Below, one piece after another: positions 15,824 to 32,554 of a stretch of DNA of 32,554 bases. A program made the translations under genes and the position numbers. The notes under the pieces are model-generated. The model ran no database searches, had not been told where the DNA came from, and saw only the letters and a list, made by a program, of their open reading frames with translations. Positions within the stretch are counted from its first letter, which is position 1. The number at the start of each line of letters is the position of its first letter. Location: NCBI GenBank assembly GCA_020345725.1, contig CP070767.1, positions 101,782-134,335 on the forward strand, written 5' to 3'. This DNA comes from Methanobacteriota archaeon. GTDB taxonomy: Archaea; Thermoplasmatota; Thermoplasmata; RBG-16-68-12; SOIM01.

Positions 15824-16929
15824 ATTTTGATTTTGAAGTTGAGGAGATTGTTGAGGGTAAGGCAAGAATTCTTGTTCCGAAGACTACCAGGGGCAAGGGA
15901 CCGGGAAAGAAGGAAGGAGTTCCTTTCTACAATCCCGTGATGGAACCAAATCGCGACATTTCCGTATTGGTGCTACAGAATTGCCTGTCCAGTGGGAAGA
16001 ATAGGATTCTCGATGGACTGGCTGGGACGGGAATTAGAGGGATAAGGTTCGCCATGGAAGTCAGTGGGAATTTGTCAATCTTGATGAACGATTGGAACGA
16101 ACAGAGCCATGCCATTATGTTGGAGAATATCAGGAGAAACGAGGCGCAGAATACAGAAGTTAGACATGAAGACCTCAACACTCTGCTGACAAGTGATGAA
16201 TTTGACTATCTGGACGTTGATCCGTATGGGACACCAGTTCCGTTTCTGGACAAGGCTGTGAAAGGAGTGAGAGATGGTGGAATCTTGGCGGTAACGGCAA
16301 CCGATACTGCAGCCCTTGCTGGAAGCTCTCCCAAAGCCTGTATGAGAAAATATGGGGCCACTCCAATCAAGAGCAAGACAAGTCATGAAACAGGATTGAG
16401 AATCCTCGTTGGATATTGTGCCAGAATTGCTGCAGAATATGACCTGAACATCCGACCTCTCCTATCTCATTCCACTGACCACTACTACCGAACATATCTG
16501 GAGATACAACAAGGTCAGAGTCAGGCCAATGGCACCCGTGAGAATGTGGGCTTTCTTTCTGTGGATCTATCCTCGCAAGAGATGTTCCTTGAAGAAGAGA
16601 AGAAAGACGACTTTGTGGCTGCAGGTCCACTGTGGATAGGGAGCCTATGGAACCCCGGTTTCCTTGAGGAGATGAGATCCAGATCCTATATGCCCTCTGA
16701 AACATCGAGAATCCTGGAACTTCTGAAGCTGGAATCCCAGATAGAGTCCCCATACCATTCGTCCGAGGAAATCGCATCGCACCTGAAGGTTCACACTCCC
16801 AGATTGGCATCGATACTTGAAAGGCTGAACGAAGAAGGTTACAACGCCTCGCCCACACATTTCGATTCAAAGGGTTTCCGCACAAATGCTCCAATTGACG
16901 AGATATTGCAGATCTTTAAGAAGACCTAG
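15817..16929 (+). CDS. trm1: tRNA (guanine26-N2)-dimethyltransferase Trm1
   Basis: Trm1 dimethylates N2 of guanosine 26 at the junction of the D and anticodon stems of tRNA, using S-adenosylmethionine. The 370 residues contain the N-terminal FYNPVMEPNRDISV (37-50), the SAM-binding LDGLAGTGIRGIR (65-77), the catalytic-type motif DVDPYGTPVPFLD (133-145) and TATDTAALAGS (160-170), all diagnostic. The C-terminal part (from about 290) is the usual helical tRNA-binding region. Length is normal for archaea. It overlaps the THEP1-type gene by seven bases and overlaps the convergent PAPS-reductase-like gene by four bases at the 3' end. Confidence 0.95.
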   Translation: MVDFDFEVEEIVEGKARILVPKTTRGKGPGKKEGVPFYNPVMEPNRDISVLVLQNCLSSGKNRILDGLAGTGIRGIRFAMEVSGNLSILMNDWNEQSHAIMLENIRRNEAQNTEVRHEDLNTLLTSDEFDYLDVDPYGTPVPFLDKAVKGVRDGGILAVTATDTAALAGSSPKACMRKYGATPIKSKTSHETGLRILVGYCARIAAEYDLNIRPLLSHSTDHYYRTYLEIQQGQSQANGTRENVGFLSVDLSSQEMFLEEEKKDDFVAAGPLWIGSLWNPGFLEEMRSRSYMPSETSRILELLKLESQIESPYHSSEEIASHLKVHTPRLASILERLNEEGYNASPTHFDSKGFRTNAPIDEILQIFKKT

Positions 16930-18815
16930 AATGAGAATTCTCCAGTGAAATCAGCAGCTGGACAGGGGCCAATGCAGGACCCACAGTGCTCACATTTCTC
17001 TTCGTCGATCAGTGCAACCTCTTCGATATGTATCGCATCGGTCGGACACTGACCTAAGCACGTTCCACATCCCACACAACCGTGAGCCTTTCTCGCTATT
17101 CTCTCAAGTATGCCAGATGTCTCGTGAAGTTCCTTTTCGTCCTTTGCCTTGATGATGGCAACTCCCTCTTCGAATACTGTCACCCTTTCCGTGAGACATG
17201 CCCGGACCACATCGTCATACTCGACCTCCCCAACCAGGTTCATGAAAACGCGCATTCTGTCTATGTTCAATGTCGAGGTGAATATCCCCTCAGCGCTAAT
17301 ACCCATCACACAAGGACCATAACCCTCGGAAAGATGAAACTCAAACGGATCCTCAGGGGGCTTCAATTCCTTCTTCCTTCTGCCCAGGAGTTCCCTCATT
17401 GGTTGAGGTGGAAGCTTCCATCTCCAGCCTCCATAACCGATCCAATTCTTGCCCCAACCTGACCTTTCTGCGTACTGATGTAAGAAGTCTTGCCATCTGT
17501 CATAGTCCTTGATCTCTGAACCCACGGCCTCAATTTCTGCCAGGTCAGAAGAGGGACATAGCCAGCAACCAATCCTCTCTAAACCCTTCTCATACCAGGG
17601 ATTATACTCCACCCCATTCATGAAGAGGTAAAGCCAGATATGCATGGAGGTCCAGTTCTGAATCGGTGAGGCACCTATCTGCAACGGAACCCAGGGATTC
17701 TTCCATACGCTCTTCTTTGCAGCCCTCTGTTCGGACTCATACCTCCTCTGACCAATGAAGGAAAGCACCCCCTTTGGATACTTCTCTTTGATGATTCGGG
17801 CGGCTGGTCCGAGCTTACACGTCTTGCAACACCACCTGTAGTCCTTTGCGGGAGGACCGAATCTGTCCAGGTTCTCCCAGAATGATTCTCCTGCCATCTC
17901 CTGAACCAATGGGAGGTCGTACTCCCTGCAGATAGCTCCCACGTGCTCTACCGTTTCCTCAAATTCGAGGCCGGTGTCGATGAACAGTATGTCAGGTCTG
18001 AGGCCGGCTTCAAGAACTAGAAGAAGTGTAGCCAGACTGTCCTTACCCCCGCTGAAAGATACTGCAACGGGCATATCGTACTTCTCAACTGTCCTTTTCA
18101 CAAAACCGACGGCCTTCTTGACGACTTTGGACAGGTTGTCCCTGTTCGCTGCTACTGCATCTTCCCAGGTCTGTCCGCCTGGAAGGACCTCAGGAGGGCA
18201 GGGAGCAGAGGCCCAGCGTGTCTTAGCACCAGCACCTCTGGTTTTGCTCATCATCTCCTTCCCTGACATCCTGGCAATGCCAACTGCAATCGCCTCCCCG
18301 TCCTCGGTGAGGATGATGACCTCGTCCCCTTTCTTGATGCTGGGTGAGGCTTTCGCTATTCCAGGGACCATTGGACTGGCCTTCTTCGAGATGGAGCCAA
18401 CCGCTCCTTTGTGAACGGTGATGAAGCCCTTCCTCAGTCCCTTTGCCAGCCGTCTTCCACCTTCCATTCTCAACACAAAATGATATCCACTGCCCGGGTC
18501 AAACCTCAACGACCCCAGAACATGTCCATCTATGATGACTTCGTCCATTCTATCCAAATGAGGCACTTTATTCAGTACAATTGTCTTGTTGTCAGGAAAC
18601 AGGAGCTCTCCTTTCCCTCTTCCAAACTGCCTGTCCACGGTCTCTTTTAGAACATCGATATCTGCTTTGAACGCGGGACGTGCGTCTCCAGGAGGTGTTA
18701 TCTTAACCTCAACAGTGGGTTCGGAACAAGTACTGCACAGTTTCTGTTCCAGAATGGGTAGGTTGCAGTTCCTGCACCAACGCAGCAGAAGCTTACCAAG
18801 CCGAACAGCAGGCAC
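16926..18815 (-). CDS. Zinc ribbon-PUA-PAPS-reductase-like-ferredoxin fusion protein
   Basis: This 629-residue cytoplasmic protein combines four modules. A zinc ribbon has cysteines 14, 17, 27 and 30 (WCRNCN and CSTC). A PUA-type region covers about 130-196 (VHKGAVGSISKKASPMVPG, then GDEVIILTEDGEAIAVG). A PAPS-reductase-like PP-loop domain follows with SGGKDS at 255-260, DTGLEFEET, WCCKTCK and IGCWLCPSS. Two 4Fe-4S clusters end the protein (CVGCGTCLGQCP and CEHCGSCIGPCP). Similar proteins occur in many archaea as PAPS-reductase family members; PUA and zinc ribbon point to an RNA substrate and sulfur transfer, but the reaction is not established. The start is GTG 18815: a TATA box at 18837-18848 fits leaderless initiation there. 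A GTG at 19013 would add 66 residues unlike the family. Confidence 0.85.
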   Translation of the reverse strand: MPAVRLGKLLLRWCRNCNLPILEQKLCSTCSEPTVEVKITPPGDARPAFKADIDVLKETVDRQFGRGKGELLFPDNKTIVLNKVPHLDRMDEVIIDGHVLGSLRFDPGSGYHFVLRMEGGRRLAKGLRKGFITVHKGAVGSISKKASPMVPGIAKASPSIKKGDEVIILTEDGEAIAVGIARMSGKEMMSKTRGAGAKTRWASAPCPPEVLPGGQTWEDAVAANRDNLSKVVKKAVGFVKRTVEKYDMPVAVSFSGGKDSLATLLLVLEAGLRPDILFIDTGLEFEETVEHVGAICREYDLPLVQEMAGESFWENLDRFGPPAKDYRWCCKTCKLGPAARIIKEKYPKGVLSFIGQRRYESEQRAAKKSVWKNPWVPLQIGASPIQNWTSMHIWLYLFMNGVEYNPWYEKGLERIGCWLCPSSDLAEIEAVGSEIKDYDRWQDFLHQYAERSGWGKNWIGYGGWRWKLPPQPMRELLGRRKKELKPPEDPFEFHLSEGYGPCVMGISAEGIFTSTLNIDRMRVFMNLVGEVEYDDVVRACLTERVTVFEEGVAIIKAKDEKELHETSGILERIARKAHGCVGCGTCLGQCPTDAIHIEEVALIDEEKCEHCGSCIGPCPAADFTGEFSF

Positions 18816-18836
18816 GTCTGTAGATGTACTACTTGG

Positions 18837-18848
18837 AATAAATATTTT
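18837..18848 (-). promoter_or_regulatory. TATA box of the PAPS-reductase-like gene
   Basis: On the minus strand this reads AAAATATTTATT, centred about 28 bases before GTG 18815. It fixes the likely start of the gene and lies inside the extra N-terminal region that a GTG at 19013 would produce. Confidence 0.55.
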
Positions 18849-18950
18849 CACCAACCTCCCCAAAAAAGACCTACCACGATCATGTGACGGACACTTAAGG
18901 CCCCAAATCGGTAGTTCTATCGTGGGAAAAAGGGTCATTCCCATGCGAAG

Positions 18951-18961
18951 CTTTTTAATAT
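18951..18961 (+). promoter_or_regulatory. TATA box of the KaiC-like/giant membrane protein operon
   Basis: CTTTTTAATAT is a good TATA element on the plus strand. It predicts a transcript start near 18982-18987, some 28 bases before the CTG at 19013, leaving a short leader that contains GGAGG at 19002-19006. The rest of the gap from 18849 to 19001 shows nothing else recognisable. Confidence 0.5.
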
Positions 18962-19012
18962 CAGAATTGCATACATCTTTCAACAGTTTGTTGAATCGGA
19001 TGGAGGCACTCA

Positions 19013-19729
19013 CTGAGAAGAATTCCCACTGGTATTGAGGGATTTGACGAATTAGTGGATGGAGGTTTTCCAGAGGGCAGTGTCAACCTAATTTCTGGAC
19101 CTACCGGCTCAGCAAAAAGCCTGTTCTGTCTTCATTTTGCGTACAATGGGGCTGCAGAATACGATGAACCTTCACTCTATGTGACTCTGGAGGAGAAGAA
19201 GGACAACCTACGAGAGACCCTCAAGGGTTTTGGGATGGACCCCACGAAGTATGAGACGGACGGGACGCTTACGATAGTGGACTTAGGTGAAATCAGACAG
19301 CTGACGGAGGATGAGAGCGAGATTGACTTCCATTCCATACAAGCGATGATCGATGGTTTGATCGAGACGAACAGAGTCAAGAGACTGATTGTCGACTCAA
19401 TCGCCATCATAGGACTGCAACAGAAGGACCGTAGGGAGTTCAGAAGGGACCTTTTCCAATTCGGAAGATTCCTAGGGGGGAAGAACACCACGTCCATATT
19501 GGTCACAGAGTGTTCCGAGAAGGGGGAGCTTACAAGATTCGGAGTGGAGCAGTTCATTTCTGATTCATTCATATTCCTTGGTCTTGACAATGTTAAGGGG
19601 GAGCTGACCAGGACCATTGTTGTGAGGAAAATGCGCCTCACCCATCATGATATCGCAGTTCATCCCTTTCTCATCACTAACAGAGGGATTAGGGTCTCGT
19701 CAGATGTGAAAGTGTCGGAGGGGAGGTAG
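19013..19729 (+). CDS. KaiC-like ATPase, probable CTG start
   Basis: This single-domain KaiC-like ATPase has 238 residues if it starts at CTG 19013. Walker A is GPTGSAKS (29-36), the Walker B strand is RLIVDSIAIIG, and the C-terminal end IVVRKMRLTHHDIAVHPF matches the KaiC fold end. The usual N-terminal motif RIPTGIEGFDELVDGGFP is coded before the first ordinary start (GTG 19055), and no ATG, GTG or TTG lies in frame between the stop at 18992-18994 and that GTG. CTG 19013 has GGAGG six bases upstream and gives the same length as the other KaiC-like protein in this window (237). A one-base frameshift from ATG 19000 is the alternative. The next gene begins one base after its TAG, so the pair is translationally linked. 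Confidence 0.75.
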   Translation: MRRIPTGIEGFDELVDGGFPEGSVNLISGPTGSAKSLFCLHFAYNGAAEYDEPSLYVTLEEKKDNLRETLKGFGMDPTKYETDGTLTIVDLGEIRQLTEDESEIDFHSIQAMIDGLIETNRVKRLIVDSIAIIGLQQKDRREFRRDLFQFGRFLGGKNTTSILVTECSEKGELTRFGVEQFISDSFIFLGLDNVKGELTRTIVVRKMRLTHHDIAVHPFLITNRGIRVSSDVKVSEGR

Positions 19730-19730
19730 T

Positions 19731-22700
19731 ATGGTTTCTATGGGGATCAGGAGATTTCATCTTCTTTTGGAGCAGGGCATTCCAGAACGTTCGGCCGTTG
19801 TAGTCCAGGGTCCTGTTGGAGACGAGAAGGATTTGGTTTCGTATCAATTCCTGGCTGAAGGTCTCAGAGCAGGCGAAGGAGCATTTGTGGTCCTGAGCAA
19901 GGTCTCTCCTGAAGATTTCAGGAAGGAGATGGAGGACCTCGGTCTGAAGATCAGCAAATATGAGGATCGTGGGGAGTTCGTAATCGTGGACTGGTACTCC
20001 CATAGGAGCTCAAGAATCGACGGGGTGGAGGATGAGGGTTCAGTAGTGCGTTCCTCGGAGAGCATGGTGAACCTGGAGATCGCAATAAGTGAAGCAGTAG
20101 GGAAGCTCAGCGGATTTGAAAGGAAGAGGGCAATCGTTGATATTCTTTCCCCAGCCGTCAAGATATTTGGATCCACAGAGGTCTATGCTCTGTCCCAAAC
20201 CCTCAGGACCAAATTCCGGGACGAGGAAATCACTTCAATATTCTTGGTCGAGAAGGACATGCATAAAGAGGATGAACTATCGAGTATCCACCAGGCTTTC
20301 GATGGGGTCCTGGACATCAAGAAGGAGGAGAGAGAGGGCAGAACCGAGACGATGATCGGTGTCCTTTTCATGAGAGGTGTCAGAACCGAGACCAAGTACT
20401 TCCCGCTGGCCTATTCAGAAGGTGAGATGGTTCTGGAGACCCTTCCAGAGGTTGAGGAACCCGAACCTCTGCCTGAAGAGGAAGATGTCGCAGAAGAATC
20501 CCTGCGAGTGGTGGATGAGAAGGCAATCTTCGCAGAGGGTATGAGACTTCTTGAGCTGGGCGAGTACGAGGAGTCATTGGGCAAGTTCGATGAGGTCCTC
20601 GAAATCAGTCCAGACTACAAGGAAGCATGGAATGCAAAAGCAAATGCTCTCATGCATCTGGGAAGACCCGAAGAAGCGACCGAGGCCTACAGGAAGGCCC
20701 TAACGACCGTCCTTGAGTTCGTGGACAGGGACTATCTACGGGAAGTAACGAAGAAGGCCACAGCAAGGGAGGCGCTGAGGGAGATAATCAAAGAGGAGAT
20801 AGGCCTCAAGAGAGTATCCTGTCCGGTATGTGGGAGCGGTATTCCCGGTACTGTGGAAATCTGCCCGGAGTGCGGGGCCACTGTCCGGGAGGAAGTTGTG
20901 GAAGAAGAGGCTTTTCCAGAGCTCGAACCGGCAGAGGAGATCACAGAGGAAGAGGCTGAGCTCAGAGATTGGTTGAAGGATCAGAAGGAGAAGCAGAAGG
21001 ATATTATCGACTTCAGAAAGAAACTTGCCAAAGAAGCCCGGGCCCCCATGAAGAGGGTTGATAGAGAAATCGGGCTTGTGAACGGAATAGCGAGGGAGTC
21101 CAGAGCCGGGATTGGCCTGACCAATGGTCTCACGAACGGTCTTGCTGCAAGGGGAAGAACGAATGGAATTGTAAACGGGCTGACAAACGGACTCAACACT
21201 GCTTTGAAAGGACTGACCAACGGACTGACGAACGGAAACGGATTGACAAATGGTCTGGGATGCAGAAGGTTTGGAAAGGAATCTCGCAAGAATAAGTACA
21301 AGATCTTCCTAATTCCGATTATTGCATTGATTCTTCTCTTCCTACCTCTGACTACGGTCACCGAAGTAGGGCCAGAAGGTGTAATTGGGATAGATGGCAG
21401 TTTCTCCGATTGGACAGGGATTTTGGCCAACCAAGAGAACCCTGCAATCAACCAGAATATCGACATAACTGGAACTGCAGTTGACTCGGACGAACATAAT
21501 CTCTATTTGTACTCCGAGGTCAGAGGTTCCATTCTAATGGGTGCCCCTGTGCCGAGAGTGACGGACAACATTCGAGCGTTCATAGACCTGGACAGGAATC
21601 CCTTGACTGGGTACCCGGTTGGAGGGATCGGGGCTGACTACTTGGCAGAGATGATGGGATTCAATGGAAGACCTAGCTTCCCAAGGCTCCGCCAGTTCCA
21701 TTTCGACGATGAGAAAGGCAGGAATGATTGGAACAGCTGGAAGAACACCCGCAACATCGAGGTGTCTACCGGAATTGCAGCAGCTGATGCTGGGAAGATG
21801 GAAGCAAGGGTCCCATGGTCCCACCTGGGAGCAGAAGAAACGGTCGTTGATGTGAGGTTCTACTCAGTAGGGTGGGACGAATCAATGGATTCTTCTGATT
21901 ATGTGATGAGCAACAGCCCTGGAATCCTCACCCTTACCCAGGAAAACTCCATCCCAATAGATCACATCCTCAGCACCAGCGGAGAGACGAGAGTACTGAC
22001 TCTAAAGGCGAAGGCAGAGGGAGAAGACATTAACATTCAGAGTATGAAGGTTACATTAATCGGGACTGCGTACTCGACGGACGTGGACAGGGTTTCTCTC
22101 AAAACCTCAGGGGGGGATGAACTTGCTTCTGTGTGGCCCTTGACGAACGAGGTGGACTTCCAATCCTTGGATATTGTGATCCCAGAGAATCAAGAGCTTG
22201 AGTATGGTGTGGATGTGCAGCTCTCCAAGTCGAGCAATCGAACGCTTGGGGCGGAAGTGGAGCTCAGTTCCGATGTTGTAATCGACAAAGGTGCGGTAAC
22301 TCTGAGAACCGTCCAGAGTGAGCGAAAGGTCGGGTACATCGGCTCCGTTCCGATCGGAATCACGATCGACGGTGCATTCGCCGATTGGTATGGAATGGAG
22401 GAAGTCGATGACCCCATGGAATCACCTCCTGGAGGGAATGAAGACGTGAACATCAGAAGCTTCGCCAACTATACTCAAGGAGATGATGTGTATCTATTCC
22501 TGAATGTTAGTGGAGAAATGTTGGGCGGATCGCCAATACCGGTTCTGAACCCTGCGCAACCAGAGAACATCCCAGGAGTTGTTGATTCGGACCGCGATAC
22601 CGTCCCAGATTCTTTGGATGAAGACACATTCGATTTCGACAACGACAACATACCTGACAGCCAAGAAGGCGGTGACATCGACGGAGATGGTGTTCTGGAT

Positions 22701-25193
22701 TACCCAGCGGGGCCTGATGAATGGCTGATTACAGTGATTCCGAGTCATTTTCCAGCTCCCTATGCAGGCAAGAGTGTGACTGTGTTCATCGGCAGAATCG
22801 AGAAACCAGTCCTGACTGGGTCTGATGTGGCGAGGGCGTACATAGACTCGGACGATGACAAGGCTACCGGCTACTGGATAAGCGAGATAGGTGCGGATTA
22901 TCTGGTTGAGATATTAGGCAGAAGCGGCGAGGTGGTCTCTTCAAGCATCAGGAAATACCTACTACCAGGCGGGTCTTCGCAGTGGAATTGGGACGATCCA
23001 GAAGTGATTGACATAGAAACCGCTATGGGATCGTACAGTATGGAATCTCACTTCGACGCACAGAGCCTCGGATTCGCACCAAGCATTCACATGGTCTTCG
23101 AAACCAGTGATTGGAGGAAACACAAAGATATGGCAACGAATGTGGGCACCAGATCCTTGAGCAGGGGTGACTACGGAGACTATGACATCTCGTATTCCTC
23201 CCATTCATATGACGCTTTCTTCACAGAGGACGCGGACAAGGTCATGTTCCAGAGAAAGGGAGTCCAGCTCAGTTGGGAGCTACCCAAAACAATATACTGG
23301 AGATCGGCGGAAGAATTCGCTGCCATTGAGAATTTGGGCTTCTCAGAAGCAGTGCTAAACGGGCTCTCAGTTGAATATGGAGGCTCGGCAATCGACATCG
23401 AATACCAGCTGGAGCACAATGCCCTGAAAGAGGAGATCTTCCTACACTCCCGGCCCTCTGCACCTACCGATTCCTACCTGTCTGTTCCAGTGCCTATTCG
23501 GTTCTCCTCTGATCTGATGATATATGTTGAGGGTGAGGAGGCAATGGGAGGCATGATTACGGAGCAGCCCATGACCTTCTACGAGAGGGACACTGCAAGA
23601 TTCACCGTCAATCCTCCTTTCGCAATGGACTCCAGAGGTGCGAGGGTGGACTGCAAGTATCTCTACCAGGAAATCGGGAACATACTCGAGATGTTGTGCC
23701 CCATGGATTGGTTGGAGGATGCTGTCTATCCTGTGGCCTTGGATCCCACTGTTACAGCCTATACGCTGGAGAATGACGGGACCCTGGGTCAAGCAGGAGA
23801 GAAGTTCGGTCATTCCGTTGCGATCGGGGATTTCAACAATGACAGCTATGCGGATGTCCTGACTGGGGCACCATACGCAACCGTCAGCTCTGTATCAAAT
23901 GCAGGCGCAGCCTATGTCTATTATGGACCGTTCAGCGGGGACGACACATCCCCAGACGTCTACATCGAAGGCAGCATTACGGACGGACATTTGGGTTGGG
24001 CGGTCGCCGCGGGTCAGTTCAACAACGATGACCACTGGGATGCCGCGGTCTCCCAGAAGGATAACGATGTGTACGTCTATTATGGATCAGATTCTTGGTC
24101 CGGACAGGAGAACACTCCAGATGTCACCTTTGACGAGAGTTCCATCACAACTGATAACGGGATTGAAGGCTTCGGCATGTCCCTCCATTCCTGCAATTTC
24201 GACTATGATGGCACGTCGCTGAACTTTGATGATCTTCTAATTGGTGCACCTTTCAAGAACATCGGGACTGGACAGGCCAAGGGCAACTATGACGGTGCTG
24301 TATATGCGTTCGTAAGTGTCTTTGCCTCGACTGAGACAGGAGAGGACCATATGCTCCGACCCGAAGACAATAAGGACAAGGGTCAGTTCGGATTCTCAAT
24401 TGGGTGCGGGAAGATAGATAGTGATAACAAGTGGGATGTTGTAGTTGGGGAACCTTGGAACACCACGCTGGATGGGTCAGTCCAGATCTTCTATGGTGAT
24501 GAGATAAACGCCATAACAGAGACCCCTGACGAGTGGTTGGAGCCTGAGACCACAGGCGAGCAGTTCGGATTCAGTGTAGCAGTTGGAGACATGGACACCG
24601 ACAGCTATGCAGACGTATTGGTAGGTGCTCCCTACAATGATGAGGGCGGAACGGACATAGGAAGAGCATATGTATACCAAGCTGAAACGGACGGAAGCGG
24701 ACTACTTGCCCAATCAGCACCGGATCTGGATATCGCAGGCTGGACAGCAGGAAGCCTTTTCGGGTTCAATGTTTCGATAGGAGACTTCTATGGAGATGGC
24801 CAGGGAGATGCGATAATCAGCGCACCATATAATGATACAACAAACGTATATGGATCGATATTCATCTTCGATGATCCGATAGGGGGGGATGCCGTGGTTG
24901 ACGATGCCGTTTCAGGTGACCAGGGCAGCGAGCACTTCGGTTGGGATGTCGCAGGAGGACAGTTCAGCAGTGACGCCAATTTTGTCGTGGCCGGAGGTTC
25001 GATCGACTGGGATGACGGGAGTCCATCAGAAACAGACGCTGGCAGAATTATGGTCTTCATGATTCCCGAATTTGATAATCTTGCCTTTCCCCTATTTATC
25101 TTACTTTTAATACCAGTAGCTTCGTGGTTCAGAAGAAGAAAGACGTCCATTTCAAGGCAGCGACACCGGGACAAGGTTCAAGCAACACACTAG
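19731..25193 (+). CDS. Giant transmembrane protein: degenerate KaiC domain, TPR, zinc ribbon, Asn-Gly repeats, ectodomain with seven FG-GAP repeats
   Basis: The gene encodes 1820 residues in one frame. Residues 1-235 are KaiC-like, but the Walker A site reads GPVGDEKD (27-34), lacking the usual glycine and Ser/Thr, so ATP use is doubtful. An acidic linker, TPR-like helices (263-330) and a zinc ribbon (Cys364, 367, 378, 381) follow. Residues 448-510 are Asn-Gly repeats; 523-541 form a membrane helix after a basic stretch, placing the N-part in the cytoplasm. Outside are two related domains starting IDGSFSDW and IDGAFADW; the second holds an inserted calcium-loop segment (DSDRDTVPDS, DIDGDGVLD). 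Seven FG-GAP repeats occupy about 1350-1776. The end has IPEF (1778-1781), a hydrophobic helix and RRRK, like PEF-CTERM. ATG 19731 follows GGAGG. Confidence 0.85.
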   Translation: MVSMGIRRFHLLLEQGIPERSAVVVQGPVGDEKDLVSYQFLAEGLRAGEGAFVVLSKVSPEDFRKEMEDLGLKISKYEDRGEFVIVDWYSHRSSRIDGVEDEGSVVRSSESMVNLEIAISEAVGKLSGFERKRAIVDILSPAVKIFGSTEVYALSQTLRTKFRDEEITSIFLVEKDMHKEDELSSIHQAFDGVLDIKKEEREGRTETMIGVLFMRGVRTETKYFPLAYSEGEMVLETLPEVEEPEPLPEEEDVAEESLRVVDEKAIFAEGMRLLELGEYEESLGKFDEVLEISPDYKEAWNAKANALMHLGRPEEATEAYRKALTTVLEFVDRDYLREVTKKATAREALREIIKEEIGLKRVSCPVCGSGIPGTVEICPECGATVREEVVEEEAFPELEPAEEITEEEAELRDWLKDQKEKQKDIIDFRKKLAKEARAPMKRVDREIGLVNGIARESRAGIGLTNGLTNGLAARGRTNGIVNGLTNGLNTALKGLTNGLTNGNGLTNGLGCRRFGKESRKNKYKIFLIPIIALILLFLPLTTVTEVGPEGVIGIDGSFSDWTGILANQENPAINQNIDITGTAVDSDEHNLYLYSEVRGSILMGAPVPRVTDNIRAFIDLDRNPLTGYPVGGIGADYLAEMMGFNGRPSFPRLRQFHFDDEKGRNDWNSWKNTRNIEVSTGIAAADAGKMEARVPWSHLGAEETVVDVRFYSVGWDESMDSSDYVMSNSPGILTLTQENSIPIDHILSTSGETRVLTLKAKAEGEDINIQSMKVTLIGTAYSTDVDRVSLKTSGGDELASVWPLTNEVDFQSLDIVIPENQELEYGVDVQLSKSSNRTLGAEVELSSDVVIDKGAVTLRTVQSERKVGYIGSVPIGITIDGAFADWYGMEEVDDPMESPPGGNEDVNIRSFANYTQGDDVYLFLNVSGEMLGGSPIPVLNPAQPENIPGVVDSDRDTVPDSLDEDTFDFDNDNIPDSQEGGDIDGDGVLDYPAGPDEWLITVIPSHFPAPYAGKSVTVFIGRIEKPVLTGSDVARAYIDSDDDKATGYWISEIGADYLVEILGRSGEVVSSSIRKYLLPGGSSQWNWDDPEVIDIETAMGSYSMESHFDAQSLGFAPSIHMVFETSDWRKHKDMATNVGTRSLSRGDYGDYDISYSSHSYDAFFTEDADKVMFQRKGVQLSWELPKTIYWRSAEEFAAIENLGFSEAVLNGLSVEYGGSAIDIEYQLEHNALKEEIFLHSRPSAPTDSYLSVPVPIRFSSDLMIYVEGEEAMGGMITEQPMTFYERDTARFTVNPPFAMDSRGARVDCKYLYQEIGNILEMLCPMDWLEDAVYPVALDPTVTAYTLENDGTLGQAGEKFGHSVAIGDFNNDSYADVLTGAPYATVSSVSNAGAAYVYYGPFSGDDTSPDVYIEGSITDGHLGWAVAAGQFNNDDHWDAAVSQKDNDVYVYYGSDSWSGQENTPDVTFDESSITTDNGIEGFGMSLHSCNFDYDGTSLNFDDLLIGAPFKNIGTGQAKGNYDGAVYAFVSVFASTETGEDHMLRPEDNKDKGQFGFSIGCGKIDSDNKWDVVVGEPWNTTLDGSVQIFYGDEINAITETPDEWLEPETTGEQFGFSVAVGDMDTDSYADVLVGAPYNDEGGTDIGRAYVYQAETDGSGLLAQSAPDLDIAGWTAGSLFGFNVSIGDFYGDGQGDAIISAPYNDTTNVYGSIFIFDDPIGGDAVVDDAVSGDQGSEHFGWDVAGGQFSSDANFVVAGGSIDWDDGSPSETDAGRIMVFMIPEFDNLAFPLFILLLIPVASWFRRRKTSISRQRHRDKVQATH
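21072..21260 (+). repeat. Asn-Gly repeat region (GLTNG units) in the giant membrane protein
   Basis: The DNA codes for about ten units ending in NG, mostly GLTNGL and variants GLVNGI, GRTNGI and IVNGL, over 63 residues immediately before the basic patch and membrane helix. The codons vary between units (aatggt, aacggt, aacgga, aatgga), so the protein sequence has been kept while the DNA drifted. It should be flexible and lies on the cytoplasmic side. Function unknown. Confidence 0.85.
23785..25060 (+). repeat. Seven FG-GAP repeats (predicted beta-propeller) in the giant membrane protein
   Basis: Seven units share the pattern FG.SVA.GD.N.D.Y.D.L.GAP. Examples are FGHSVAIGDFNNDSYADVL, FGFSVAVGDMDTDSYADVL and FGFNVSIGDFYGDGQGDAI. 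The third and seventh units are divergent. Seven is the number of blades in a closed integrin-type propeller, whose loops often bind calcium, so a complete domain is likely. The region lies just before the C-terminal membrane helix. Confidence 0.8.
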
Positions 25194-25302: not shown

Positions 25303-28300
25303 ATGATCCCAAAAGCATGGGCGCGAGCATTGAGCTTGGCTATTGTGTGTTCTCTATTGACCGGCCTCTATGTGATAACGGACTTCCCCGTAATGGAAGT
25401 GAAAGCTGTAAACCATGCCGGAGTAGTTACACAGAATGAGACCTGGAGAGGAACCAACAACCACATCATATTGATGAACGTGACGATTCCTGAGAACATA
25501 ACAGTCGAAATAGAGGCAGGTGCCGATGTACAATTCGAGGACACAGGGAACACAAACTTGGGACCTCTTAACATCTTCGTAAATGGAACCCTCATTATCA
25601 ATGGAACGCCTGCGGATCCAGTTACGTTCTGGCCAAGGGTCCAGGCTGGCAAAGAAGTACCAGGAGATTGGGGTTCTATCTACTATAATGCCACGGCAAA
25701 TGATACCGCGAGCAAGGTGTCCTATGCCATAATGGGATATGCAACAGAGGCATTGTATCTAGAGGATACGGGCATACTGGTCGAGAACGTCCAAATTCAC
25801 AACTCGTCACAATCAGGAATAGTCTCGTACGCTTCCAGTCCAGTTATTCGAAACTCTACAATACAGTACAACAACTTCGGAATCTGGATGGAGGCTGGGG
25901 GAGAGCCTGTCATAGATAACAACACGATTGAATGGAACTGGTATGACGGTATCTACGGAGTCAGCAGGGTCAAACCAACCATCATAAACAACCGTGTCTG
26001 GAGGAATATTGACGACGGAATACACCTCCTCGCCTTGTTCAATCAAGGCTTGGTTGCGAACAACACCGTGATAGAAAACTGGGACATGGGAATGGTGCTT
26101 AACGTTCGGGCTGATGCACTCGTAAAAGACAACAACATCTCAAACAACTTGGATGCTGGAATATGGATGAGAGCCGCAAGTCCGATAATTCAACATAATC
26201 TCATCACAAACAACACCAGGAATGGAATAAGGATTTTCGACTGCAAGGAAAATGAATTCTGCCCAGCTTCCCAAATAGTGAACAATACAATTGCTTACAA
26301 CAACAGGGAGAGCGAAATAAATCCCGACATATTATATCCCGGTATATTCGTTGAGAACGCGGACCCGCTGATTGCGAACAACTACATCGCCTTCAATGAT
26401 GCTGAGGGGATATACCTGAGAAGAGATTCTGGTGGGAATATCTCGAGCAACGCGATCATCAACAACGAGCTGGGAATATCGGTCAACGACTCCTCACCAT
26501 TCATACTCAACAACAACCCGATATCGGGGAACATCGCGGGCATCTACGTGAAGAAGGGTTCCCCGCTCATCAGGGACAACGTCCTTACCAACAACAAATA
26601 CGGTATCTACACCTATGATGAAGCAGAGCCGGGAATCTACAGGAATGTCATAAGCAGCGCCAGTGGAAAGGACCTCATCGTAGGTGACAAGGAAGGTAAG
26701 GTTACCTATTTCGAGAACAGGGGTGAGAGCGTCTTCATGGACCGGGGAAGGATGAAACTCGAGACCGGCGAGGACATAGATGTGGGATCATATGCGGACC
26801 CGGCTTGGGGCGATGTCGACTACGATGGACTTGATGATCTTCTGGTTGGCAATGGCTTTGGGAATGTGTACTACTACCGGAATCTTGGGAATGGATACTT
26901 CCGCGATATGGGTCCCCTGACGAACGAGACACCGGTCACCCAGATTGGGAACCTTGTGGACCAGTTCTGCCATCCCTTTGTGACCGACTGGGACAATGAT
27001 AGTGACCTTGACCTGTTCTGTGGGAACTCTGTTGGTAACATCTTTTATCTCTCAAATAACGGGGACGATGTTTTCACAAGCATGGGTCAACTGAAGGAAG
27101 GAGGTTTGCCAATCGATCTTTCAATGGCGGCCCCATTCTTCACACGCTGGAACCCTGATCAAGATAGAGATCTCATTGTCGGAGACTACTGGGGAAATGT
27201 GTTCTATTACGAGAATACCCTGGGGGATGGAAATACGTCCTTCCTCAAGATAGATAATGTTCGGTTGGCAGACAACACCCCCATCAGTGCTCCGAACTAT
27301 ACCGTTCCTTGGTTGGCAGACTGGGACGACAATGATTTGACCGAGGATGATCTGACCATAGGCAATGACAAGGGTGTGTTCTTGTACACAAGGGCAACAG
27401 GGAATACTTTCAATCCTCCAGTACAGTTGATCAGTAGCACAACTCCTATAACCGCTCGAGCAGTCGATTGGAATAGTGATGGGGCAATGGACTTGATAAC
27501 AGGGGAGCTCGGTGGCTATGTTAAATTCCACAGAAACACTGGATTCGACACCTTCAACGAATTCCAGATACAGAACGGCTCAGGGCCGCTTTATCTCCCA
27601 ACTTGGGCGTCACCATTTCCTGTTGATTTTGATGACGATGGCGTGCTGGATTTGATAGTAGGCGACCAATACGGCGACGTGTGGTTCTTCAGAGGAACTG
27701 CACCAGGAAGCCCAATAGTGGAGTTTGTGTCGATTCTGACTGCGTCCGGAACCAGGCAGAACTTGAAGGTCGGACCTCTTGGTTTCGGAATGGCCACTCC
27801 GGTCTCAGTTGACTGGAGAAGCATCGGGAGGGCTGACCTATTGGTTGGAGAGGTAAATGGATATGTCTGGCTCTTCACTGATGACGGGGATGAAACATAC
27901 TCATCGGAAGGTAGAGCGCACAACGAAACCGGGACTCTAATAAGAACATTCGCAATGAACTCTGCACCTGGAGTGGGAGACTGGAATGGAGACATGCTTC
28001 TGGATTTGATTGTAGGTGACCAGTGGGGATACCTTCACTTCTGGAAAAGGAACGACGTCTCTGGGGACTTGATGAATTTCACGGACATGGGGTACTTGAT
28101 GACAGATGGCATTCCTCTCCAAGTGAGCACTTACGCTAACCCCTATGTCGATGATTGGAACGCGGACGGGGATTTGGACATCCTAATTGGAGAAGAGAGT
28201 GGCAGAGTGATGTACTATGAGAACGACGGAGATGGGACTCTGACGTTCAAAGGTAACCTAACTAATGTCCTGGGAGGAGACCTGAAGGTCTCCAACAACG

Positions 28301-31300
28301 CAGCCCCACAGGGAGTGGGTTACTATGGTTCCATTCGAGGCTACAAGGGTGGAATTGGGATCTACTGCAAGGATTCTTCACCCGACATTCAGAACAATAT
28401 TATGATCAAAGGTGGAGATGGAAACAAGTCAGTTGGAGAAGGTGACATTGGAGGAGTCGGGATATACCTACTCCGTTCGGTTGCTCGCATAACTGGTAAC
28501 AAGAACGTGACCGGTGGTTCGGGTGGATTGGGCCTCACAGATCCCGCAGGAGATGTGATCGGAGGACAAGGAGGACATGGCATCTTTTTGGATAACTCTA
28601 CTGGCTTCATAACTGACAATGTGATAAGTGGAGGCCTGGGTGGCCCTGCAGAAGACTCTGTCTCTCCCTACCTTACCATTGGCGGAGCAGGTGGCAGCGG
28701 TATCTATTCGGTCAATAATACCAATACGATCATCTTGGGGAATGTTGTCATGGGTGCGGAAGGAAGTTGGGCAAAGAACGGAACGGGTGAGCATGGAGCT
28801 GGGGTCCGGGCTATGAATAACTCGGAGCCCTACATTGAAGGCTCAATCATCTCGGGTCCGATTGGAGTTTACGCGGACAATTCCACACCCTACTTAGTGA
28901 ATAGCACCATAACGGCAAACATGAGCTTCAACGCAACAAACCACGCCCACATAGTAGCTCTGAATACAACATTCGACAGAACGAAGACGTACTATGGTGA
29001 TGACTCGGCAGTGTTGGAGGCTCAGTGGTTCCTCAACGTCAAGGTGGTGGACAGGAGCGGATTCTCGGTTCCCGCAGCAGAAGTGGTGCTTGAGAGGGAC
29101 GGTCTCGCCTTCCAAGGGCATCTTGATTCGGGCTTTACTCCATTACTTACGACACCTGGCCCATCACCCACAGTGGTTGATTGGGATGGGGATGGATTTG
29201 ATGATCTGATAGTGGGGGAGGACGACGGTGATGTCCTGTTCTACAAGAACAGGGGCGATAACACATTCCAAACACCTCCAATCATCCTGATACGAGGGAA
29301 CCCCTTGAGGATAAGCAGGCCGCATGCGTATGATCTTGATTTCGATTTCAATCCCGATATTGTCCTAGGAGACAGCACTGGCAAGGTTTCCTGGTACAAG
29401 AGAAATGGTACGGATATGGAGTTCTTTGACACCTTCAAAATCGAGGATGATTTCGGAGTTGTGATTGGGGAAGTAAACGTATCCGCCTTTGGCAAATCTG
29501 CTCCCGCAGTGGGCGATTACAACCTCGACGGTTATTGGGATCTGTGGGTCGGCGATGGGTTTGGCAATGTGAACATATTCATCAGAAACAGGACATCCTT
29601 CCTCAAGTTCAAACCGGGAGGGGTAGCGAGAATGACTGATGGCTCTCCAGTGAGAACATTTACGAATGCCGTTCCTCACGTCGTTGATTGGAACGGAGAT
29701 GGATATCGGGATCTCATTCTTTCATCCGTGGGCATGGTCTCGCTATATCTGAGCTGCGAAAACGGAACCATGCTCCATGGCGGACCTTTCTACACAAACA
29801 GATCTGGCCTCAATCCAATACTCGTGGGAGGGTTCTCCGCGACAACAGTGACGGACCTGAACGGCGACGGTGACCTTGATTTGCTCGTGGGAGCGACCAA
29901 CATCTCCCTTCCAAGTGCGGGCAACATCGAGTATTTCGAAAGCAACAAGAACGGGGATTCAAGGACGTTCATGGCAGATGATGACGGCGAGGTGAACTGG
30001 GTCATCGCCACTGAATTCATAGAGTCTGACAAGAATGGGAATCATTTCGGAAATGATCCAGGAGACAAGGTCTACTACACCCAGCACATGCTCAGAGCAA
30101 AGAAGAATATCGACATCGGCTGTGCATCACCTCAGGCTTTGATGACGGAAAGCCGTGACGTCTATATTCACATGTGCCGGGACGTAGCCCTACCCTATGT
30201 TGTGGCCACCGATCCGAAGTCTGGCGAAGAGGGCGTGCCCCTCAACAAGAAAATCACCATATGGTTCTCGAAACCAATGAATCCAAACGGAGTCTTCTTA
30301 TCTTTCTACACATCCAACTACTCTACTCAATGGACAGACAACAATATGACACTCATACTCACTCCAAGCCCAGTATTGATTCAGGACACACACTATACGA
30401 TTATAATCCACGGCAATTCGGTGGATGCTACGACTCCAATCCCTCAGCCTCTGGACGGTAATAGAAATGGGAAGTGGGATGGTGCAGATGATGATTCATA
30501 CCATTTCAACTTTCACACCGAGAGGGTCGGTCCCCCTGTGCCTCCAGTCGCAGAGTTCATCCACTGGCCTTCGCCCTCAATCTCAACATTTGTGATCGGG
30601 ACTGAACTGGTCTTTGACGGAAGGAATTCATCTGATGATGACGGTATTGGATTGTGGAATATTACCGTCCGCGACGGGATCGGTACCTACACCTTCGGTG
30701 ACACAAACATACAAAACGCGACGACCGGACCGATTATGTTCAATGTCCTCGGCACGCATTGTTCCAACATTACTGTATGGGACTTGACGGTACTCACGAG
30801 CAACGCCACCGATTGTGTGAACATAATCAACGTGGACATTACTCCACCAGTTGTCGATGCCGGACCTGACCAATGGGTAGCTCCGAACCAGATGGTGACT
30901 TTCGACGGTTCGAATTCCTGGGATGATGTTACTCCGCAAAGCATGCTCGATTTCAACTGGACATTCATCGATGTCTTTCAACGGAATTTGACTGGAATGA
31001 ATCCGACATACGCTGGGTTCAGTGCAGAAGGTGATTACCTGGTCACGCTGGCCGTCACCGACGAAGCCAACAACACAGGCTTTGACAGCATGACTGTTCA
31101 CGTAGTATCCGATCCAGACCCAATAGCCGACGCTGGTCCCAGTCAGGACGTATGCGCTGGTGATGTGGTGACCTTGGATGCCAGTGGGACTTGGGACAAC
31201 AATCCCCTTGCAAATCTGACCTTCAACTGGACATTCGACGACGGAACAGGCTCCATCTTCCTTCAGGGCATGATAGTCACCCATCAGTTCAACAACACAG

Positions 31301-32554
31301 GGAGTTTCGGAATCTTCCTGAACGTGACAGATGAATCCGGAGGCTGGGATATTGATGCCACATGGGTGAACGTGACGTCCTGCATCAAGCCCACAGTGGA
31401 CGACTATGGGCCAAGAGGTCCTGACCATCTTGTGGACACCTTTGTCTGGGCAGAGTTCAGCAAAGACATGGCTACACCTTCAATCTTCACATCCTTCTCC
31501 TTGATCATAGATGGCACTCCCACGCAAATCGCAGGGAATCCAACCTACACCTCGGCTGGTTTCAACTTCACATTCACACCATTCCAACCGCTGAGCTATG
31601 GAACAACGTACAGAGCATGCTTCAGAGGGGATATCGCAAGGGATACCGAAGGCTTCTATCTTGATGGAAACGGCAACAATGTGTCAGAAGGATCACCAGC
31701 TGACGATTTCTGCTGGACATTCCGAACCGCTGAGCCTCCCTGGGTGGTGTTCACTGAACCTGGAGCAGATGAGCCGGACGTTCATGTTGGTACGAACATA
31801 TCGATTTCTTTCAACGACCCAATGGATCCCGCTTCGGTGCAGCTGGCGTTCTCGATCAGAGATGGAGTCGGAGTCTGGGACAGCACCAGTTTCTCTGTGA
31901 GCTGGGATGTGGACATGCTTGCATTCACTTTCTCTTACCCCAGTTTCGGATTCTCTTTCTCAACTACGTACAATGTGACATTGGATTCCTCTGTGGCTAA
32001 AAGCCTGAGGGGTGTGTATCTGGACGGTAACATGGATGGGACTTCAGAAGGATCTCCGATTGATGACTACACCTGGTTCTTCACTACCGAGGACACTCCG
32101 ACCATGACTGGAATCCCGACGGGAAGTGACGTTCCGTTGAACGCGGACGTCGTGTTGAGCTTCAGCAAACTCATGGACTGGCAATCTGTCAAATCTGCCA
32201 TCACCATCAAGGAAGACACGGTGCCCGTTCAAATAGACAGCTTTGGAGCGGTGTCCTGGAACGACGCGGCTATGACATTCTCAATCAATCCCTTCATGCT
32301 GAAACATGGAACAGCATACAACATAACCGTCTCAGGTGATTCCGCCACTGGAGCAAAGGACCTTAACGGCAACAGTCTGGATGGAAACAGAAACGATGTC
32401 CTGGAGGGTTCTCCCAGCGATGACTATTCGTGGGAGTTCACCACAACGGCTCAGGATGTTGATCCGCCTCATGTTGTTGACACATACCCAGCGAATGGCA
32501 CTTTGGGAGTTTCCTCAACCTCGCTGATAACCGTGACCTTTGACGAGCTGATGA
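25303..32554 (+). CDS. Secreted giant surface protein: beta-helices, 14 FG-GAP/VCBS repeats, PKD and SbsA Ig-like domains (3' end beyond window)
   Basis: The frame is open from ATG 25303 to the window end, at least 2417 residues, with no stop found on reading the frame through. Residues 1-35 form a signal peptide-like segment (WARALSLAIVCSLLTGLYVIT). A right-handed beta-helix region (NosD-type, repeated I.NN.I) covers about 75-470. Nine FG-GAP/VCBS-like repeats (about 496-990; WD.D.D.DL.VG) are followed by a glycine-rich second beta-helix (about 1010-1235) and five more FG-GAP repeats (about 1280-1545). Then come an SbsA-type Ig-like domain (about 1633-1740), three PKD-like domains (about 1745-2028) and four further SbsA-type domains. 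Each of the complete ones ends with LDGN.....EGSP.DDY.W.F. Asn-glycosylation sequons are abundant. The protein is probably extracellular and calcium binding; the partner is unknown. Confidence 0.85.
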   Translation, partial: MIPKAWARALSLAIVCSLLTGLYVITDFPVMEVKAVNHAGVVTQNETWRGTNNHIILMNVTIPENITVEIEAGADVQFEDTGNTNLGPLNIFVNGTLIINGTPADPVTFWPRVQAGKEVPGDWGSIYYNATANDTASKVSYAIMGYATEALYLEDTGILVENVQIHNSSQSGIVSYASSPVIRNSTIQYNNFGIWMEAGGEPVIDNNTIEWNWYDGIYGVSRVKPTIINNRVWRNIDDGIHLLALFNQGLVANNTVIENWDMGMVLNVRADALVKDNNISNNLDAGIWMRAASPIIQHNLITNNTRNGIRIFDCKENEFCPASQIVNNTIAYNNRESEINPDILYPGIFVENADPLIANNYIAFNDAEGIYLRRDSGGNISSNAIINNELGISVNDSSPFILNNNPISGNIAGIYVKKGSPLIRDNVLTNNKYGIYTYDEAEPGIYRNVISSASGKDLIVGDKEGKVTYFENRGESVFMDRGRMKLETGEDIDVGSYADPAWGDVDYDGLDDLLVGNGFGNVYYYRNLGNGYFRDMGPLTNETPVTQIGNLVDQFCHPFVTDWDNDSDLDLFCGNSVGNIFYLSNNGDDVFTSMGQLKEGGLPIDLSMAAPFFTRWNPDQDRDLIVGDYWGNVFYYENTLGDGNTSFLKIDNVRLADNTPISAPNYTVPWLADWDDNDLTEDDLTIGNDKGVFLYTRATGNTFNPPVQLISSTTPITARAVDWNSDGAMDLITGELGGYVKFHRNTGFDTFNEFQIQNGSGPLYLPTWASPFPVDFDDDGVLDLIVGDQYGDVWFFRGTAPGSPIVEFVSILTASGTRQNLKVGPLGFGMATPVSVDWRSIGRADLLVGEVNGYVWLFTDDGDETYSSEGRAHNETGTLIRTFAMNSAPGVGDWNGDMLLDLIVGDQWGYLHFWKRNDVSGDLMNFTDMGYLMTDGIPLQVSTYANPYVDDWNADGDLDILIGEESGRVMYYENDGDGTLTFKGNLTNVLGGDLKVSNNAAPQGVGYYGSIRGYKGGIGIYCKDSSPDIQNNIMIKGGDGNKSVGEGDIGGVGIYLLRSVARITGNKNVTGGSGGLGLTDPAGDVIGGQGGHGIFLDNSTGFITDNVISGGLGGPAEDSVSPYLTIGGAGGSGIYSVNNTNTIILGNVVMGAEGSWAKNGTGEHGAGVRAMNNSEPYIEGSIISGPIGVYADNSTPYLVNSTITANMSFNATNHAHIVALNTTFDRTKTYYGDDSAVLEAQWFLNVKVVDRSGFSVPAAEVVLERDGLAFQGHLDSGFTPLLTTPGPSPTVVDWDGDGFDDLIVGEDDGDVLFYKNRGDNTFQTPPIILIRGNPLRISRPHAYDLDFDFNPDIVLGDSTGKVSWYKRNGTDMEFFDTFKIEDDFGVVIGEVNVSAFGKSAPAVGDYNLDGYWDLWVGDGFGNVNIFIRNRTSFLKFKPGGVARMTDGSPVRTFTNAVPHVVDWNGDGYRDLILSSVGMVSLYLSCENGTMLHGGPFYTNRSGLNPILVGGFSATTVTDLNGDGDLDLLVGATNISLPSAGNIEYFESNKNGDSRTFMADDDGEVNWVIATEFIESDKNGNHFGNDPGDKVYYTQHMLRAKKNIDIGCASPQALMTESRDVYIHMCRDVALPYVVATDPKSGEEGVPLNKKITIWFSKPMNPNGVFLSFYTSNYSTQWTDNNMTLILTPSPVLIQDTHYTIIIHGNSVDATTPIPQPLDGNRNGKWDGADDDSYHFNFHTERVGPPVPPVAEFIHWPSPSISTFVIGTELVFDGRNSSDDDGIGLWNITVRDGIGTYTFGDTNIQNATTGPIMFNVLGTHCSNITVWDLTVLTSNATDCVNIINVDITPPVVDAGPDQWVAPNQMVTFDGSNSWDDVTPQSMLDFNWTFIDVFQRNLTGMNPTYAGFSAEGDYLVTLAVTDEANNTGFDSMTVHVVSDPDPIADAGPSQDVCAGDVVTLDASGTWDNNPLANLTFNWTFDDGTGSIFLQGMIVTHQFNNTGSFGIFLNVTDESGGWDIDATWVNVTSCIKPTVDDYGPRGPDHLVDTFVWAEFSKDMATPSIFTSFSLIIDGTPTQIAGNPTYTSAGFNFTFTPFQPLSYGTTYRACFRGDIARDTEGFYLDGNGNNVSEGSPADDFCWTFRTAEPPWVVFTEPGADEPDVHVGTNISISFNDPMDPASVQLAFSIRDGVGVWDSTSFSVSWDVDMLAFTFSYPSFGFSFSTTYNVTLDSSVAKSLRGVYLDGNMDGTSEGSPIDDYTWFFTTEDTPTMTGIPTGSDVPLNADVVLSFSKLMDWQSVKSAITIKEDTVPVQIDSFGAVSWNDAAMTFSINPFMLKHGTAYNITVSGDSATGAKDLNGNSLDGNRNDVLEGSPSDDYSWEFTTTAQDVDPPHVVDTYPANGTLGVSSTSLITVTFDELM

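Follow-up and report, generated by a model that had tools for sequence, protein, structure and literature searches.

In archaea, signalling hubs built around KaiC, and catalytically inactivated copies of this ATPase (iKaiC), are already known (PMC5847659, citing Makarova et al. 2017): dead KaiC domains are fused there to further signalling modules, and the archaea concerned have many active KaiC paralogues. ArlH, the KaiC-like ATP-binding protein of the archaellum, offers a second point of comparison, since it works as a switch for membrane machinery (PMC8978795). The locus described here lies in a stretch of 32,554 nucleotides ('the window', G000:C1:101782-134335) of the genome of an uncultured archaeon of the phylum Thermoplasmatota, assembled as a single contig of 1.99 Mb; coordinates below are those of the window and, unless stated otherwise, of the plus strand. 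It differs from the published iKaiC proteins in that a giant surface protein with one membrane pass carries the iKaiC at its cytosolic end and has its own active KaiC (kai1) adjoining. The first-pass annotation knew of no described system of this form, a statement weakened by the published KaiC and iKaiC hubs; the open papers searched, which did not include Makarova et al. 2017 itself, gave no membrane-bound giant in which an iKaiC is partnered by an active KaiC. Inactivated KaiC is known, and the transmembrane iKaiC with a cognate active KaiC partner appears to be a new form of it.

The first gene of the pair, kai1 (19013-19729, 238 codons), encodes a single-domain KaiC-like ATPase (Pfam KaiC, E=7.6e-60) that is predicted to be active. 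On inspection of the reading frames, its KaiC frame stays open throughout 19013-19729 and contains no ATG, GTG or TTG that would fit the start of the conserved domain; the apparent start is a CTG at 19013 with GGAGG upstream. Five species of the family keep both this CTG and the GGAGG, and an ATG takes the place of the CTG in the sister family, so that the start originally proposed at 19013 is right. Ordinary gene callers would shorten a gene that begins in this way. Alignment with KaiC CI places Walker A (GPTGSAKS) at 19097-19120, with both the Lys and the Ser intact, in line with the intact P-loop of the first-pass annotation; the Ala preceding the Lys is common to 14 of 26 testable kai1 copies. 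Walker A and the catalytic Glu pair are kept in all 26 copies that have N-termini, as are Walker B and the K-M-R-x-T-x-H trans finger in 29 of 29. In KaiC this finger completes the ATP site of the neighbouring subunit. The profile match (PF06745), Walker A, Glu pair, Walker B and trans finger together mark kai1 as an active-type KaiC and, judged by these residues, it has every element needed for a homo-ring.

Fold, Walker motifs, Glu pair and trans finger are shared with cyanobacterial KaiC, to whose CI half kai1 is nearest; however, cyanobacterial KaiC forms a CI-CII double ring, whereas kai1 has a single domain and the second KaiC of this locus is a separate, dead, membrane-bound chain. A circadian clock KaiC was rejected as an identity for kai1 (168.8 versus 408 bits and 127.8 versus 546 bits against the curated KaiC equivalog cut-offs, with no CI-CII tandem), and so was ArlH (45.3 bits against a curated cut-off of 215). 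ArlH resembles kai1 as an ATP-binding protein of the KaiC fold that works on membrane machinery, but the partner of ArlH is ArlI/ArlJ and that of kai1 is the iKaiC surface protein.

Exactly one base (19730) separates kai1 from the gene for this surface protein (19731-25193), which at 1820 residues has the length, as the gap has the width, given to it at first pass. The protein opens with the iKaiC domain (residues 3-227, 19737-20411; Pfam KaiC, E=4.2e-25), which AlphaFold2 models confidently as a KaiC fold (pLDDT ~90), nearest to PH0284 (2dr3; Foldseek TMt 0.85-0.87). Its P-loop, GPVGDEKD (19809-19832), keeps the Lys but has Glu for Gly and Asp for Ser/Thr, so that the loss of key P-loop residues claimed for this domain is real, and in the alignment the Gly-to-Glu change (Glu32) is invariant in all 30 strong iKaiC relatives. 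The catalytic Glu pair is present in no iKaiC copy, and the K-M-R-x-T-x-H finger is lost. Residues found only in iKaiC have become invariant (E32, S59-P60, W88, H178 and G192) beside retained ones (K33, D87, E174 and D191). Two further pairs have an iKaiC nearly devoid of the P-loop region, next to an intact kai1. This combination of a KaiC fold with lost catalytic residues places the domain in the iKaiC class, and we predict that it is catalytically dead and does not hydrolyse ATP.

Behind the iKaiC domain come TPR repeats (residues 267-325, 20529-20705; Pfam TPR_2, 7e-11), a zinc ribbon (364-384, 20820-20882) whose four Cys are invariant in 24 relatives, and, in the AlphaFold2 model, a long helix that may be a coiled coil (406-436, 20946-21038). 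The TPR is ordered in the model, and residues 440-514 are without order. This last region contains a juxtamembrane repeat, (LTNG)n (449-508, 21075-21254), within a linker of ~70 residues between the cytosolic domains and the membrane that is predicted to be disordered (pLDDT ~30). The chain then crosses the membrane, N-terminus inside, by a helix at residues 525-543 (21303-21359; mean hydropathy 2.75; helical in the AlphaFold2 model) preceded by basic residues. Outside lie two CBM9-like modules, at approximately residues 553-731 (21387-21923; IDGSFSDW at 554) and 878-1131 (22362-23123; IDGAFADW at 879), the second with an Asp-rich insert (~952-990) that possibly binds Ca, and a propeller of seven FG-GAP repeats (23805-25055; residues 1359-1736, spacing ~60 residues; Pfam FG-GAP, 8.7e-17). 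The membrane crossing and external propeller of the original description are thus both supported. The chain ends in a putative anchor (25062-25139), made up of IPEF, a hydrophobic segment (~1776-1799) weaker than that at 525-543, and FRRRK, so that basic residues flank both membrane segments on the expected inner side; this tail matches no curated CTERM model above cut-off, and the genome carries two archaeosortase-family genes (exo_archaeo family).

For the ectodomain the model has a mean pLDDT of 82.9. Among its Foldseek matches only those to CBM9 modules (7nwo and 1i82; TMt ~0.5, E ~0.006-0.012, with no Pfam CBM9 match) appear local and credible in the model. Sialidase and complement C5, suggested by whole-model searches, were discarded as multi-domain artefacts (rmsd ~28-30 Å). 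The propeller resembles that of integrin alpha in having seven FG-GAP repeats outside the cell, but all else differs and nothing we found points to a shared origin of the two systems. The kai1/iKaiC system lacks any known output domain (kinase, DNA-binding) and does not belong to the two-component sensor kinases, the Pfam scan of P0001 showing no HisKA or HATPase.

The pair is conserved well beyond this genome. Among 32 fetched membrane-type loci (defined as iKaiC followed by LTNG repeats), kai1 lies directly upstream on the same strand in 21, with gaps of -23 to +36 bp, and the pair occurs in many families, which upholds the linkage that the first-pass annotation had proposed to look for in related genomes. 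The other 11 comprise three cut by contig ends and eight without an adjacent kai1: five in genus g5, a second copy (G034:C17) and the more distant G122 and G333:C1. A kai1 search in the g5 genomes gave nothing above a paralogue of 33-36% identity and, since this one genus keeps iKaiC without an adjoining kai1, the partner is not obligate. Five further loci carry a soluble form of the pair (gaps -4 to +18 bp), in which kai1 is followed by a protein of 650-870 residues that joins an unrelated N-terminal domain to iKaiC domains; these occur in families f37 (outside the class) and f21 (within it) of the same phylum, and imply that the core job of the pair need not involve the membrane. In soluble iKaiC proteins adjoining kai1 we also observe a conserved N-terminal domain of ~270 residues without a Pfam match (L208 3231-4040; L209, L210, L212). 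In a combined tree, with the iKaiC rows G047_f17m and G058_f21m disregarded as having the same sequence as their kai1, kai1 and iKaiC form two fully supported groups, the iKaiC group having weak internal support and several long branches; second pairs (f2a/f2b and f20a/f20b) are placed separately in both gene trees. The ~2-Mb genome itself has ~16 KaiC matches, no two further ones of which lie less than 2 kb apart.

Selection appears to act differently on the two sides of the membrane. In pairwise comparison of the window with a relative of the same genus, where dS approaches or exceeds 1 in every part and the ratios are therefore rough, dN/dS is 0.045 for kai1, 0.051 for iKaiC, 0.048 for the repeat and transmembrane stretch and 0.11 for the CBM9-like ectodomain; for the FG-GAP part, with dS saturated, dN is 0.38 against 0.05 inside. 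By this measure iKaiC seems to be under purifying selection and as tightly constrained as kai1. All 15 orthologues compared keep both IDGxFxDW modules, but the distal ectodomain is variable (FG-GAP in six, a lamin-tail domain (LTD) in two, HisK_sensor in two, Reg_prop in one and MG2 in one). A conserved inside and a fast-changing outside would be as expected for a receptor.

With a probability of roughly one half, we propose that the two genes encode a transmembrane device in which a homo-ring of kai1 is recruited and modulated by the membrane-tethered pseudo-ATPase iKaiC. The active ATPase kai1 would probably form a KaiC-type homo-ring in the cytosol; iKaiC would dock on or next to it, stacked or capping and not alternating within one ring, and would both hold kai1 at the membrane and modulate it, with the TPR and zinc ribbon making further cytosolic contacts. 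A ligand or surface met by the ectodomain, with its two sugar-binding-type modules and propeller, might then recruit or cluster kai1 or raise its local concentration. We infer the contact between kai1 and iKaiC, the ring state, the direction of the signal and its output from the features above. An outside-in direction is preferred because the ectodomain is fast-evolving and exchangeable, and the flexible (LTNG)n linker suggests coupling by recruitment, clustering or local concentration and not a rigid membrane-spanning lever. The earlier proposal that the pair 'reads or drives' the state of the outside domains is in this respect partly supported, as tethering and the external propeller fit it but direct coupling is weakened by the predicted disorder of the linker. 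As the pairing is kept across many families, it is probably a KaiC-based link of the cell surface to the inside. It is possible, and we suggest it tentatively, that such proteins make up a separate transmembrane signalling class in archaea, in which single-pass receptors with exchangeable ectodomains act on a cognate KaiC ring by way of a pseudo-KaiC tail and have no histidine kinase or chemoreceptor module. Archaea have many KaiC paralogues of unknown purpose, and the pair offers a testable route by which surface information could reach a KaiC ATPase; the fixed residues of the inactive partner are open to mutation.

The main rival of the outside-in reading, though we think it rather unlikely, is control in the opposite direction: kai1, as an ATP-dependent switch like ArlH, would govern how the giant surface protein is assembled or presented, or how adhesive it is, and iKaiC would be the docking site of kai1. 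The action of KaiC-like ArlH on a membrane machine (PMC8978795) is a precedent, and the ectodomain looks adhesive (FG-GAP, CBM9-like), has a second giant FG-GAP protein downstream and is found in a genome with archaeosortase-family genes. However, kai1 falls far below the ArlH cut-off, the linker is predicted to be disordered, and the soluble form of the pair lacks a surface protein. Doubtful, too, is the idea that iKaiC has been re-purposed for another ligand or partner and that kai1 is merely co-transcribed: its specific invariants beside retained KaiC residues, and the genomes that have iKaiC without kai1, agree with this, but adjacency across many families, the soluble form and the separate second pairs would be left unexplained. 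The first-pass annotation favoured a hetero-oligomer, and an active/inactive KaiC pair does exist, with a shared fold and coupled, stoichiometric-looking genes; a mixed ring in which iKaiC poisons or times neighbouring ATP sites is nevertheless quite improbable, since iKaiC has lost both the cis (P-loop Gly and Ser/Thr, Glu pair) and the trans (KMR-T-H) halves of the site and the interfaces of an alternating ring would be empty. A misassembly or decaying pseudogene, as a very long gene in a MAG with a degenerate P-loop might suggest and, for a misassembly, as the first-pass annotation had cautioned, is rejected, because orthologues of 1822 and 1802 residues with the same order in other, independent MAGs (G001, G002) exclude a chimera and dN/dS is 0.05.

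Returning to the surface protein of the outside-in reading, its (LTNG)n-TM-CBM9-like core recurs in other proteins of the genome whose cytosolic ends are zinc ribbons, helix-hairpin-helix-like domains or TPR and which terminate in IPEF or VPEF tails; of the 194 genomes sampled from the phylum, 14 have the core (E<=1e-8), and it is widespread in nearer relatives. Several cytosolic modules, KaiC among them, therefore seem to be carried on a shared surface-protein scaffold. Tetrapeptide repeats of the form (L/V)TNG stand beside the transmembrane helix in several giant proteins that differ in their cytosolic modules (L218, L219, L220, L221, L222), and our literature search for the LTNG repeat string found nothing. 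Recent expansion of the repeats at the DNA level was ruled out, as synonymous codons vary and dN/dS is low; these codon patterns indicate selection at the protein level. A soluble protein of 871 residues elsewhere in the genome (L215 3209-5824; G000:C1:1663208-1665823) combines a helix-hairpin-helix with iKaiC/DUF7504 and has relatives in many genomes of the phylum.

Upstream of the pair, 18-34 nt before the kai1 start, lies a palindrome, TTCAACAnnnTGTTGAA (18979-18995), whose core is single-copy in the genome and occupies the same site in G001-G005, G014 and G018 although the flanking DNA has diverged; G004 has one extra copy of the core and G010, where the kai1 contig is cut, has none. It may serve the pair as an operator or as a leader hairpin. 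Downstream, after a gap of 109 bp that is likewise found in two relatives, follows a gene for another giant secreted protein (25303-32554; beta-helix, FG-GAP, Big_5 and PKD; 2460 residues in the genome), possibly a co-transcribed partner. The divergent gene on the other side (16926-19013, minus strand) encodes a PAPS-reductase domain with PUA, TGT_C2-like and 4Fe-4S parts, and its listed start is probably too long, given the shorter ORFs in relatives.
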